A program made the translations under genes and the position numbers. Positions 27,042 to 51,769 of a stretch of 64,000 nucleotides of DNA are shown here, in pieces. The notes beneath the pieces were generated by a model, which did no database searches, was not told the origin of the DNA, and was given only the letters and a program-made list of their open reading frames with translations. Location: positions 1 through 64,000 of the forward strand of contig CANNDL010000004.1 of NCBI GenBank assembly GCA_947503435.1. The letters are read 5' to 3'. Every line of letters begins with the position of its first letter. Position 1 is the first letter of the stretch. Origin of the DNA: an uncultured Kangiella sp. Lineage in GTDB: Bacteria; Pseudomonadota; Gammaproteobacteria; Enterobacterales; Kangiellaceae.

Positions 27042-29774
27042 ATGTCCGATTCAAAAGCCCCTTTTATCCTAGTCGATGGTTCTTCTTACCTTTTCCGAGC
27101 TTTCCATGTACCTCAATTGCAACGTATGACCAATTCTAAAGGCATGATGACGGGTGCGGTGTTTGGCGTGATTAATATGCTGAAAAGCTTAATTAATGAA
27201 TATCAACCAAGCCATATGGCGGTGGTGTTTGATGCCAAAGGTAAGACCTTTCGTAATGACCTTTATCCTGAGTATAAGGCCAATCGTCCGCCAATGCCGG
27301 AAGAGCTTCGTGAGCAGATAGCGCCAATTCATGAAATTGTGAAAGCTATGGGGCTGCCTTTAATAGTCATTGAGGGAGTTGAAGCAGACGATGTGATTGG
27401 TACTTTGGCCGATCAAGCTTCAAAAGCAGGAATTGAGACCATTATTTCTACAGGCGATAAGGATATGGCTCAGTTGGTTACAGAGCATGTGACCTTGATT
27501 AACACCATGGATAAGAACAATCCGATCACTGATCGTGAACGTGTGATTGAGAAATTTGGAGTTAAGCCAGAACAGATAATCGACTACTTAGCTTTGGTAG
27601 GCGACAAAGTAGATAACATTCCTGGGGTGGAAAAGTGTGGTCCAAAAACTGCAGTTAAGTGGTTAACTGAATATGAGACTATGCAGAGTGTTATGGACAA
27701 TGCCGATAAAGTGGGTGGAAAGATTGGCGAAAACCTTCGCGCTGCTTTAGAACAATTACCATTATCGTATGAGTTAGCGACTATCAAGTTAGACTGCGAT
27801 TTAGAAAAAACACCCCAAGAGCTCTCTATTGAAGAGCCAAACTTAGAAGAATTAAAAGGCCTGTATGGCGAAATGGAATTTAAGCGTTGGCTGACTGAAG
27901 TTTTGCAAGCTGGCGGTGAAGAGGTTGAAGCGGAACAAGAAACGGCAACAATTGATCGATCTAAATATGAAACGATTTTTGATAAAGATCATTTTTCCAA
28001 ATGGCTAGAGAAACTCAAGCAAGCGGAGTTGTTTGCTTTTGATACGGAAACTACTAGCTTGGATTATATTGAAGCTGAGCTAGTGGGTATGTCCTTTGCA
28101 GTTGAGAATGACAAAGGTGAAACCGAAGCGGCTTACTTACCTGTGGCTCATAATTATATGGGTGCGCCTGAACAATTAGAGCGCGATTGGGTTTTGGCTG
28201 AGATGAAAGATTTATTAGAAGCTGATAAGTATAAAAAGGTAGGTCAAAATCTAAAGTACGATAAGAGTGTATTGGCTAAATATGACGTCGAGCTAGGCGG
28301 TATTGAGTTTGATACCATGTTGGAGTCTTATTGTTTAAATAGTGTTGCCTCCCGTCATGATATGGATACGCTTGCTTTACACCATTTGAACCATGCCAAT
28401 ATTAAGTTTGAAGAAATTGCTGGTAAAGGCAAAGCGCAGTTAACTTTTGATCAGATCGATTTAGAGCAAGCTTCACCTTATGCCGCTGAAGATGCCGATA
28501 TTACTTTAAAGTTACACCAAAAACTGTGGCCACAATTACAGGAAGAACAAGGGCCAAAGCAGATTTTTGAAGAAGTTGAAATGCCGTTGCTGAATGTTCT
28601 ATCAGCAATTGAAAGAAATGGAGTGCTAGTTGACGGTAATTTATTAGGCGAGAAAAGTCATCAATTTGGTGAGCGACTGATTGAGCTAGAGCGTGAATCT
28701 TATGAAATTGCAGGTGAAGAATTCAACTTAGGTTCACCCAAGCAGCTGCAAGCGATTTTCTTTGAAAAGCTGGGCTTGCCAATTATTAAGAAAACTCCAA
28801 AAGGTCAACCATCGACCGCTGAAGAAGTGTTGCAAGAGTTGGCATTGGACTATCCTTTACCAAAATTGATTCTAGAGCACCGAAGCTTATCTAAATTAAA
28901 ATCTACTTATACCGATAAGCTACCAAAAATGATCCATGACTCAACAGGCCGTGTACACACTTCTTATCATCAAGCGGTAGCAGCAACCGGACGCTTATCC
29001 TCTAAAGATCCGAATCTGCAAAATATTCCAATCAAAACCAAAGAAGGCCGTTCGATTCGAACTGCCTTTATTGCCCCAGAAGGCTACAAAGTATTAGCCG
29101 CGGATTATTCGCAAATTGAATTACGTATTATGGCGCACCTCTCGCAAGACGAGGGCTTGCTTCATGCTTTTGCCAACGACCTGGATGTGCATTCGGCAAC
29201 TGCTGCTGAGGTTTTTGATGTTGAAATTGATGAAGTTTCAACCAATCAAAGACGCAATGCAAAAGCGATTAATTTCGGCTTGATATATGGTATGTCAGCT
29301 TTTGGTTTAGCTAAGCAAATTGATACCGATCGCAACACAGCGCAGGACTATATCAACACTTATTTTGCACGTTATCCAGGCGTAGAAACCTATATGGAAT
29401 CGACTAAAGAAAAAGCTGCTGAGTTAGGTTATGTTGAAACTTTATTTGGGCGCAGGCTGTATCTTCCTGAAATTAATTCTAAGAACGGGTTGCGCAGAAA
29501 AGGGGCGGAGCGAACGGCGATTAACGCTCCTATGCAGGGTAGCGCAGCAGACATCATTAAATTAGCAATGCTTAAAGTCGATGAGTGGTTACAAGAACAA
29601 GATGGGATCAAGATGATCATGCAGGTGCATGATGAATTAGTGTTTGAGGTTCGTGATGATTTAGTTGAAATGGCTAAAGAAAAGATCCCAGCTATCATGG
29701 GATCAGTCGTTCAACTATCGGTTCCATTGATCGCTGACGTTGGGGTAGGAGATAACTGGGATCAAGCTCATTAA
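27042..29774 (+). CDS. polA: DNA polymerase I
   Basis: The 910-residue enzyme has three domains. The 5'-3' exonuclease (about 1-290) has the acidic metal site, e.g. GVEADDVIG and STGDKDM. The proofreading 3'-5' exonuclease (about 320-500) is active-looking, with Asp334 and Glu336 in AFDTETTSL and YAAEDADITLKLH. The polymerase (about 520-910) has Asp688 in DYSQIELR, Phe745 in INFGLIYG and VHDELVFEV. It works in Okazaki fragment processing and repair. Length is close to E. coli (928). The following intergenic region carries a small RNA candidate, as with polA-spf in E. coli and polA-ersA in Pseudomonas. Confidence 0.98.
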   Translation: MSDSKAPFILVDGSSYLFRAFHVPQLQRMTNSKGMMTGAVFGVINMLKSLINEYQPSHMAVVFDAKGKTFRNDLYPEYKANRPPMPEELREQIAPIHEIVKAMGLPLIVIEGVEADDVIGTLADQASKAGIETIISTGDKDMAQLVTEHVTLINTMDKNNPITDRERVIEKFGVKPEQIIDYLALVGDKVDNIPGVEKCGPKTAVKWLTEYETMQSVMDNADKVGGKIGENLRAALEQLPLSYELATIKLDCDLEKTPQELSIEEPNLEELKGLYGEMEFKRWLTEVLQAGGEEVEAEQETATIDRSKYETIFDKDHFSKWLEKLKQAELFAFDTETTSLDYIEAELVGMSFAVENDKGETEAAYLPVAHNYMGAPEQLERDWVLAEMKDLLEADKYKKVGQNLKYDKSVLAKYDVELGGIEFDTMLESYCLNSVASRHDMDTLALHHLNHANIKFEEIAGKGKAQLTFDQIDLEQASPYAAEDADITLKLHQKLWPQLQEEQGPKQIFEEVEMPLLNVLSAIERNGVLVDGNLLGEKSHQFGERLIELERESYEIAGEEFNLGSPKQLQAIFFEKLGLPIIKKTPKGQPSTAEEVLQELALDYPLPKLILEHRSLSKLKSTYTDKLPKMIHDSTGRVHTSYHQAVAATGRLSSKDPNLQNIPIKTKEGRSIRTAFIAPEGYKVLAADYSQIELRIMAHLSQDEGLLHAFANDLDVHSATAAEVFDVEIDEVSTNQRRNAKAINFGLIYGMSAFGLAKQIDTDRNTAQDYINTYFARYPGVETYMESTKEKAAELGYVETLFGRRLYLPEINSKNGLRRKGAERTAINAPMQGSAADIIKLAMLKVDEWLQEQDGIKMIMQVHDELVFEVRDDLVEMAKEKIPAIMGSVVQLSVPLIADVGVGDNWDQAH

Positions 29775-29815
29775 ATCCCATACATGTGTATAAAAATGAG
29801 AGTAAGGTCTTGATA

Positions 29816-29874
29816 TTACAAAGGTGATACAAGTCTTTACAAAAGTCTTACAAAAACCCTGCAACATTTTACAA
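29816..29874 (+). promoter_or_regulatory. Six helically phased TTACAA-like hexamers upstream of the sRNA candidate
   Basis: Hexamers TTACAA (29816), ATACAA (29827), TTACAA (29837), TTACAA (29848), CTGCAA (29859, degenerate) and TTACAA (29869) start 11, 10, 11, 11 and 10 bases apart. The last overlaps a possible -35 element (TTTACA 29868-29873). Such phasing fits cooperative binding on one DNA face by an OmpR/PhoB-type regulator. The identity of the binder is unknown. Confidence 0.6.
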
Positions 29875-29896
29875 GATGACGGGTCATTATATATAA

Positions 29897-30006
29897 GCGC
29901 ATAGGGTTATGCGCTTCCCGCGACTCCCTCCTTCTTGCGGGTATTACAGTTTGACCTCCCCAAGTCTAACTGTGTTTTTTCGGGGCCTTTATTAGGCCCC
30001 TTTTTT
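29897..30006 (+). ncRNA. Candidate small regulatory RNA in the Spot 42/ErsA position (polA-engB)
   Basis: After polA a TATATA-type -10 (29888-29895) precedes about 110 bases that fold into four hairpins. Hairpin 1 is GCGCATA/TATGCGC (29897-29914). Hairpin 2 is CCCGC/GCGGG with loop GACTCCCTCCTTCTT. Hairpin 3 is a 10-bp stem at 29946-29973, with one mismatch and loop CTCCCCAA. Last is an intrinsic terminator, GGGGCCT/AGGCCCC plus six T residues. Two loops expose C-rich CUCC motifs able to pair with Shine-Dalgarno sequences. E. coli spf and Pseudomonas ersA occupy this locus. The 5' end could lie at 29897-29904, and no coding potential is seen. Homology of sequence to either RNA was not demonstrated. 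Confidence 0.72.
29982..30006 (+). terminator. Intrinsic terminator of the sRNA candidate
   Basis: GGGGCCT (29982-29988) pairs with AGGCCCC (29994-30000), followed by TTTTTT. Confidence 0.93.
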
Positions 30007-30107
30007 ATTTCTAGCGATTAATTTTAGATAATGTTTCGTTGTACGAGATTTTGCCTTATCTAAAATTATTCGGCTAGAAAGTGGAACACACCAGAAATTG
30101 ACTTACT

Positions 30108-30527
30108 TTAATTTTGGTAAAGTAGTTCTTTGGCGTAGTGCATTTCTAATAATTCGCGTTCAGATTTTTTAAGGCTTTTGAAGATTAGAGAATATGAATG
30201 GTCAATCATGCTTTTAATTTCAGAGATTGGAATTGAGCCGTCAAGAATGATGGTGTTCCAATGTGTTTTGCTCATATGATAGCCAGGGATAACTGCATCG
30301 AAAGTACTGCGAATGGCATCCGCATGATCAGGGTTACACTTTAAGTTCATGCACCAGTGGCCTGCCATTTTTCCGTTTGTGCCTTTTTCATTACCGGTTC
30401 CTAAGGCAAGAGTAGCAAACATTTTTAAGTTTTTAATTTTAAAAACCGCTACTTCAGGACCAAAAGGAAATTGCTCATTGGCTTCGGGTTTTGACAGCAG
30501 GTATTGCTTAACTTGCTTATGGTCCAT
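30108..30527 (-). CDS. MmcQ/YjbR family protein
   Basis: The 139-residue protein begins at MDHKQVKQYLLSKPEAN. A longer reading from 30572 would overlap engB and add residues not typical of the family. Conserved YjbR blocks are EVAVFKIKNLKMFATLAL, WCMNLKCNPDHADAIR, YHMSKTHWNTIIL and MIDHSYSLI. The family has a CyaY-like fold with suggested DNA binding, but no firmly established function. It follows engB at 22 bases on the same strand. Confidence 0.87.
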   Translation of the reverse strand: MDHKQVKQYLLSKPEANEQFPFGPEVAVFKIKNLKMFATLALGTGNEKGTNGKMAGHWCMNLKCNPDHADAIRSTFDAVIPGYHMSKTHWNTIILDGSIPISEIKSMIDHSYSLIFKSLKKSERELLEMHYAKELLYQN

Positions 30528-30549
30528 ATAAAAATTTACACTTAAAGTG

Positions 30550-31152
30550 TTACTCCAGCATGGCAGGCTCATACCAACTATCTAATTTAGCGTAGAGTTG
30601 ATCAAGGCCAAGGCGCTTTAAAGATGAAAATGCTTGAACACTAGCCTTTGGGTGCAATTCTTTTAATTGTTTTTTACATTGCATTAAGGCTTTAGATTTA
30701 GCGCCTGATTTTAATTTATCAGCTTTGCTCAGTAAGCAATGCACGGGCAACTCAACACTGGCAGCCCATTCTAACATTTGTACATCAGTATCTTTTAGGA
30801 AGTGCCGGATGTCCATTAACAAAACAAGACCATGCAAACATTTACGGCTTCGTAGATATTTCCCTAATTCCGCCTGCCATTGTTCTTTCATAGCTTGGGG
30901 GACTTTGGCATAGCCATAGCCCGGTAAGTCAATCAACCGTCGACCTTCATCTAAGGTGAATACGTTGATTAGCTGAGTTCGACCAGGGGTCTTACTGGTG
31001 CGGGCAAGGCTTTTTTGTTGTGTGAGTGTATTTAAAGCGCTCGATTTTCCTGCATTGGAACGACCAGCAAAAGCCACTTCAATACCTCTATCTTCGGGCA
31101 GTTGCTTTAATTTGGCGGCGCCAAGTAAATATTTCGCTTGCTGGTAATTCAT
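30550..31152 (-). CDS. engB: Ribosome biogenesis GTP-binding protein EngB (YihA/YsxC)
   Basis: This 200-residue GTPase is needed for late large-subunit assembly and often essential. G1 is GRSNAGKS (30-37), G2 is around TPGRTQ, G3 is DLPGYG (75-80) and G4 is SKADKL (about 142). Length matches the family (about 200). It converges on polA across the small-RNA region, the conserved polA-engB arrangement. It is divergent from the cytochrome c4 gene. Confidence 0.97.
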
Positions 31153-51582: not shown

Positions 51583-51592
51583 TTAATAAAAA

Positions 51593-51764
51593 CCCAGACT
51601 GCCGTTGTAGGTAGAGGCCCTAGAACCCAAAGGTTCAGGGGGGAGACCAGGAGGATGATCAGGCTTTCCGATCAAAACGGACTTGCACAACACTTCCCGC
51701 TAAGGAATCCCAAAAAAAGTATTATCGGCTCAAGAACGTTCGCTACTGACGAACAGCCCAGGCA
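51593..51764 (-). ncRNA. ssrS: 6S RNA
   Basis: The minus strand between zapA and ygfA contains the conserved 6S elements. The 5' CCTGGGCTG pairs with 3' CAGTCTGGG in the closing stem, GAGCCGATA lies after the first stem, and CTGAACC-TTTGGGTTC forms the 3' hairpin. The large C-rich/pyrimidine central bubble mimics an open promoter. Length (about 172) is close to the E. coli RNA (184). It binds sigma70-RNA polymerase in stationary phase. A TATAAT (51770-51775, minus strand) sits at the right distance for a start near 51764. The zapA-ssrS-ygfA order is conserved in gammaproteobacteria. Confidence 0.93.
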
Positions 51765-51769
51765 GGCTA

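Follow-up and report, generated by a model that had tools for sequence, protein, structure and literature searches.

What does Kangiella encode immediately downstream of polA, and does it correspond to any of the small RNAs already named from this locus? The window analyzed here, 64,000 nucleotides from an uncultured Kangiella sp. (contig CANNDL010000004.1), contains polA, encoding DNA polymerase I and serving as the syntenic anchor, at 27042-29774 on the plus strand (NF004397, TIGR00593), and the gene of the EngB (YihA, YsxC) GTPase at 30550-31152 on the minus strand (TIGR03598). An earlier sequence-only reading had proposed an unannotated small RNA between these two genes. The upstream neighbor is indeed polA, but engB is not the direct neighbor on the other side, as a convergent MmcQ/YjbR-like gene on the minus strand (30108-30572; NF007603, below its cut-off) comes between. 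The plus-strand interval 29894-30006, whose 5' end is placed from a -10 element and whose 3' end is placed from a terminator, is very probably a genuine gene for a small regulatory RNA, and it is matched by each of the covariance models R1, R2 and R3 described below.

The predicted RNA of about 113 nt lies 120 nt 3' of polA and folds into three hairpins followed by a terminator, with a minimum free energy of -45.8 kcal/mol compared with an average of -26.4 among shuffles (sd 3.3, z -5.9); none of 200 shuffles was as low. Hairpin 1 (29895-29916, plus strand), formed by AAGCGCATA and TATGCGCTT, keeps its pairing while its sequence varies from species to species, and it folds in all 24 sequences. 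Because a full-length MAFFT alignment misplaced both hairpin 1 and the terminator, hairpin 1 was assessed by folding and the models were built from the two-hairpin core alone. That core, identified by the fold and by covariation tests, comprises hairpin 2 (29917-29941, plus strand), with a CCCGC/GCGGG stem and C-rich loop 1, ACTCCCTCCTT, at 29923-29933, and hairpin 3 (29945-29974, plus strand), with C-rich loop 2, CTCCCCAA, at 29956-29963. The sequence-only reading had located its two C-rich loops at exactly these places, CTCCCTCC at 29924-29931 and CTCCCC at 29956-29961. The intrinsic terminator (29982-30006, plus strand) consists of GGGGCCT/AGGCCCC and a U tract; its hairpin at 29982-30000, with U6, is part of the minimum free energy structure and is also detected by a consensus scan, so that the three stem-loops and terminator originally described are borne out. 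The terminator loop is UUAUU, and the C-rich apical loops of the window RNA number two. Directly 3' of the terminator, at 30008-30082, there is an AT-rich, near-perfect hairpin (z -6.05) present in one copy in the window; a CTTCGTTATACGAGATTTT-like stretch is also found 3' of the RNA in another Kangiella genome (G004), and this hairpin may be a small repeat element.

No Rfam family matches the RNA interval at its gathering score. The six matches obtained at E <= 10 lie far below their cut-offs, three are on the opposite strand, and they were rejected as chance-like. The models of Spot 42, ErsA, sX13 and anti-hemB give no match to the window RNA at E <= 10, in agreement with the initial impression that its primary sequence resembles neither Spot 42 nor ErsA. 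Spot 42 is similar in occupying the same locus with its own RNA gene. It was rejected as the identity of the window RNA: its model has no match in the interval (E <= 10) or in the whole genome (E <= 0.001), and its 5' GUAGGGUACAGAGG motif is missing from the window RNA. A small protein, comparable to SpfP in Spot 42, was rejected without a formal coding test, since the Kangiella alignment has one-base indels between the two loops that interrupt a shared frame and no ribosome-binding site was seen by eye. Elsewhere in the window, 6S RNA at 51587-51767 on the minus strand is the sole match above an Rfam cut-off.

The comparison of polA regions among relatives that the sequence-only reading had suggested finds the RNA after polA in 19 of the 19 Kangiella genomes with a polA match (20 were examined; the twentieth, 55% complete, has no polA match). 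It is found at the same place in 5/17 genomes of other genera of the same family and in 1/18 parsed genomes of other families of the order. Those 18 genomes have a Spot 42-like sequence instead in eight cases, neither RNA in nine (including G052, which reads N after polA and was counted as neither) and both RNAs in none, and none of the 54 genomes examined has the two types side by side after polA. Four genomes in which the polA stop could not be parsed (G050, G057, G038, G054) were dropped from the order survey, three had no polA match (G002, G048, G059), and the RNA copies of G036 and G023, missed by a regular expression, were recognized by eye in the sequence. The loops ACUCCCUCCUU and CUCCCCAA are nearly invariant across Kangiella, the best-conserved parts being CUCCCUCC(UU) of loop 1, CCCCAAG of loop 2 and the hairpin-2 stem. 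Covariation, whose absence had been named beforehand as speaking against an RNA gene, is present in hairpin 3, where an invariant loop 2 is carried on a changing stem: 9 of its 10 pairs vary on both sides in a set of 22 sequences. The covariation score of the two-hairpin structure in these sequences was reached by none of 500 shuffles; the hairpin-2 stem is almost invariant among them and is consequently uninformative on covariation.

How far does this RNA extend beyond Kangiella? Model R1, a covariance model built from the 22 sequences, matches 55 of 369 genomes of the class at E <= 0.01, and model R2, trained on 50 sequences (those used for R1 together with 28 matches from the class draw), matches 113 of these 369 gammaproteobacterial genomes at the same threshold, the window's own genome being included in both counts. 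In a phylum-wide draw R2 matched 3 of 249 genomes, namely the window's own and two others of the same class (G072 and G612), which bounds the false positives of R2 to an extent that depends on how many classes the draw includes. Although the models took no synteny information, 40 of the 62 R2 hits (of 122) that could be scored for position, i.e., those with polA among the matches listed (343 genomes had a polA match), lie 62-2262 bp downstream of polA, 39 of them on its strand; with the training genomes removed, the figure is 31/49. The remaining 22 scored hits are on another contig or are not within 3 kb downstream of polA, some perhaps owing only to short contigs. Forty-six matches from 40 further loci (45 distinct sequences) change on both sides at all 15 pairs of hairpins 2 and 3, and 91% of their pairing cells are paired. 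The corresponding value is 76% for shuffles and does not exceed 46.5% with slid partners; the pairing is flattered by an alignment fitted to the model. Model R3, built from those 46 matches only and free of Kangiellaceae sequences, hits the 64-kb window once, at the window RNA (46.6 bits, E 2.5e-7). It recovers all of the ten further loci presented to it from the Kangiella family or G049 and matches none of nine Spot 42 loci; its sequences had been found with the partly Kangiella-built R2, which makes this a reciprocal rather than a fully independent test.

The window RNA is a member of a polA-linked RNA family that extends across many families of gammaproteobacteria. It fits the family core of two hairpins with the loops CUCCC(U)CC and UCCCCAAG, and it fits the family placement directly downstream of polA on the same strand. 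A C-rich terminator loop is found in 52 of 74 relatives outside Kangiella compared with 4 of 19 in Kangiella. Some loci contain tandem copies: there are four R2/R3 matches in L110 and two in each of L174, L179, L184, L189, L190 and L124. In two genomes of one family (f73; L090 935-1375 and L205 988-1421), the small RNA is found just 3' of a cspA thermoregulator element, and L090 contains no polA match.

Is this family already known under other names? The sequence-only reading suggested that the RNA may be a new member of the polA-locus group or a functional analogue, a suggestion supported by matches of the ErsA and anti-hemB models to relatives of the window RNA. Anti-hemB (RF02837) resembles the window RNA in its hairpin CCCGCU..CCUCCCU..AGCGGG, in its second hairpin and in its terminator. 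It differs in that UCCCC is missing from the loop of the second hairpin, and the family is named for Burkholderia; ncS04 of Burkholderia cenocepacia appears as an alias of anti-hemB in the accessible part of PMC5688073. The window RNA does not reach the anti-hemB gathering score of 49.5, whereas four relatives exceed it: L108 (59.1 bits), one of 20 loci in a separate model search, L184 (57.6), L179 (53.4) and L206 (50.7). Among the 40 further R2 loci, the RF02837 model matches 37 at E <= 0.05 and three above its cut-off (L179, L184, L206). Through these relatives anti-hemB can be counted, on sequence grounds, as a probable part of the family.

The RNA sX13 of the Xanthomonadaceae (RF02232) is likewise situated downstream of polA and has C-rich loops, according to those portions of its literature that are accessible, and in both sX13 genes seen CUCCCCAA is in the middle hairpin. 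It represses mRNAs with 4G motifs independently of Hfq. It differs in having three C-rich loops rather than two, and is not described as having a sigmaE promoter in the accessible text of PMC3771888. The sX13 model, with a cut-off of 50, scores three polA-linked relatives at 48.3, 37.9 and 36.9 bits, and each of these matches overlaps one of R2 or R3. In total, eight matches fall below the sX13 cut-off, and for five of them the surrounding stretch contains no polA. ErsA, or Pseudomon-1 (RF01719), shares the polA-engB locus in Pseudomonas, where it is reported to be strictly dependent on sigma22, i.e., AlgU, in the available part of PMC7565897. The ErsA gene L109, which scores above the ErsA cut-off, has a C-rich terminator loop, as do relatives of the window RNA, and ErsA differs in having a U-rich unstructured segment between two hairpins. 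Below its cut-off, at E <= 1e-3, the ErsA model matches seven genomes, six of which have polA in the stretch, and five of the seven matches overlap R2 or R3 matches at E <= 1e-3. In the reverse direction, R2 at E <= 1 finds neither the two sX13 genes above cut-off (L117, L118) nor the ErsA gene L109, and R3 matches the true sX13 genes weakly (E 0.38 and 1.1) and L109 not at all at E <= 5. The alphaproteobacterial ar14 (RF02344) gives weak model matches, 40.5 bits in L193 and 31-33 bits in L083, L040, L080 and L187, all below its cut-off of 58.8; the R2-positive genomes of the phylum draw are all of the window's class. The sequence at L193 1481-1599 is matched together by the anti-hemB, ar14 and sX13 models (45.4, 40.5 and 35.8 bits, respectively), and can be viewed as a bridge sequence.

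Sub-cut-off matches were also obtained in control genomes, in 3/14 with the anti-hemB model, 1/14 with sX13 and 0/14 with ErsA. Since the anti-hemB and sX13 models match controls, weak scores mean little in themselves, and the unification therefore depends on their coincidence of place with R2/R3 matches and with polA. On this basis, ErsA, sX13 and anti-hemB are probably one polA-linked family, in which the direct link to the ErsA and sX13 genes themselves is absent or weak in the reverse searches and these two are probable divergent branches. Rfam assigns ErsA, sX13 and anti-hemB to no clan. A literature search with the five names returned a single co-mention, of anti-hemB with its own alias ncS04; no paper naming sX13 together with ErsA, and none on CCUCCUCCC small RNAs, was found in the literature searched. 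It is an evenly balanced question, in our estimate, whether a single envelope-stress small RNA, fixed beside polA in ancestral gammaproteobacteria, gave rise to ErsA, sX13, anti-hemB and the Kangiella RNA, its place being later taken by Spot 42 in the enteric and Vibrio-like lineages.

What might drive transcription of the RNA? The promoter score was based on GGAACTT, a spacer of 15-18 nt and GTC, which we take to be the sigmaE/AlgU consensus, with a threshold of 15. In the window a sigmaE-like -35 element, GCAACAT (29861-29867, plus strand), off the GGAACTT consensus, is followed after 15 nt by the -10 element GTCATT (29883-29888, plus strand). This motif scores 16 and lies at -56, the position shared by the family; its -10 fits, and its -35 GCAAC departs from GAAC. 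Across the family, 85 of 96 sites score at least 15, compared with 6.7% of shuffled or random windows, and at 81 of the 96 the -35 starts 47-63 nt before hairpin 2. The score was written after the motif had been seen in the first loci; among 46 sites unseen before scoring, 37 reach 15 and 34 are at the expected distance. GAAC is present in the -35 of 57 of the 96 sites, corresponding to 57/80 outside Kangiella and 0/16 in Kangiella, where the scored -35 is GCAAC or GAAAC and the GTC of the -10 is well kept. RpoE has a match in all 20 Kangiella genomes, and GGAACTT or TGAACTT-N16-GTC is present upstream of rpoE in 18 of them (G004 and G009 gave no such site), a pattern that autoregulation would predict. 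Given a -35 without GAAC despite the retained GTC, the Kangiella promoter may be a weaker sigmaE site or the site of a related ECF sigma. The sigmaE-like motif is present at both tandem copies in L174, L179, L184 and L189 and at one of the two in L190; L110 and L124 were outside the motif scoring. Upstream of the -35, at 29836-29855, there is a block, TTTACAAAAGTCTTACAAAA, perhaps an UP element or a site for a regulator; a regular expression for it gave no match, and similar letters were seen by eye in G013, G017 and G004.

The explanation that we favor, and consider to be quite probable, is a trans-acting small RNA of the polA-linked family that is transcribed from its own sigmaE-type promoter and uses its C-rich loops to block translation initiation. 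From what was computed, i.e., structure, conservation, covariation, synteny, promoter motif, distribution and the anti-hemB scores above cut-off among relatives, we infer transcription, the involvement of RpoE rather than another ECF sigma, repressive pairing and every target. Envelope stress would release RpoE, a sigma factor of the RpoE/AlgU type, which would transcribe the RNA from its sigmaE-type promoter; the RNA would then present two single-stranded C-rich loops on rigid stems, loop 1 pairing with a G-rich ribosome-binding site, GGAGGGAGU, and loop 2 with UUGGGGAG, and this pairing would block translation initiation of a set of mRNAs. By analogy with sX13, it is likely to be a sigmaE-type small RNA that represses mRNAs with G-rich ribosome-binding sites. 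According to the accessible text of PMC3771888, repression by sX13 requires both its C-rich loops and the G-rich motifs of its targets, and for three mRNAs among those tested loop 2 is dominant. A scan for sites preceding ATG and perfectly complementary to loop 1, limited to that loop, gave 21 sites over the 20 Kangiella genomes, compared with 4 for the reversed pattern, and no site in the window's own genome. Among the larger open frames two genes recur: one is acyltransferase-like (G001, G007), and the other, of unknown function, is found in G010 and G018, with a distant relative in G012. With so little agreement on the gene, conserved long pairings are not evident.

Could a different ECF sigma, or sigma70 acting through TATATATAA, transcribe the same small RNA instead of RpoE? 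An ECF sigma other than RpoE is possible because GAAC is absent from the 16 scored Kangiella -35 elements, which differ from the GGAACTT/TGAACTT found before rpoE, and because the window's genome has ten RpoE-like matches. As for sigma70, the sequence-only reading had taken TATATA for a -10-like element, and five sister genomes have this run as well as the window. It is probably not the promoter: a consensus scan of 29500-30500 found no sigma70-type site, the run is missing in 13 of 19 Kangiella genomes while the GTC of the -10 persists, and the sigmaE-like pair is at the family-conserved place. We regard transcription by another sigma factor, of either kind, as unlikely, though to be taken seriously.

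The two other alternatives concern function rather than transcription. The loops may be anti-Shine-Dalgarno mimics or sinks for the ribosome or an RNA-binding protein, without specific mRNA pairing. The Kangiella loop 1 contains CCUCCUU, which we take to be the anti-Shine-Dalgarno core of 16S rRNA, and the loop-1 scan yielded no specific conserved targets. Outside Kangiella, however, loop 1 is mostly CCUCCCU, which is not anti-Shine-Dalgarno (58 of 80 other sites, 0 of 16 in Kangiella), and the RNA contains no GGA, which counts against a protein sink of the CsrA sponge type, a candidate rejected on this ground. The mode of action of sX13, loop-target pairing in the accessible text of PMC3771888, also argues against a mimic or sink, a reading that seems rather improbable. 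Least probable, and to our mind very much so, is that the RNA is processed from the 3' UTR or terminator of polA and has no role in trans. Such an origin would suit an RNA that follows polA so closely, on the same strand and with a terminator at its end, but it would not account for an invariant loop 2 on a changing stem, a promoter-like motif between polA and the RNA, the tandem copies, or the scored relatives away from polA, even if short contigs perhaps explain some of these.

Starting from a Kangiella RNA without a convincing Rfam match, the analysis arrives at a polA-linked family that extends across the class, has sigmaE-like promoters and bridges RNAs given separate names in Burkholderia, Xanthomonas and Pseudomonas, the models grown from Kangiella connecting families that Rfam lists without a clan. 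If this relationship is true, results obtained in Pseudomonas, Xanthomonas and Burkholderia would be transferable among these RNAs, and cultured Kangiella would provide a test bed. If the common ancestor is also true, sigmaE-controlled riboregulation by C-rich loops would be a core function of ancient origin in the class, as opposed to something invented several times over.
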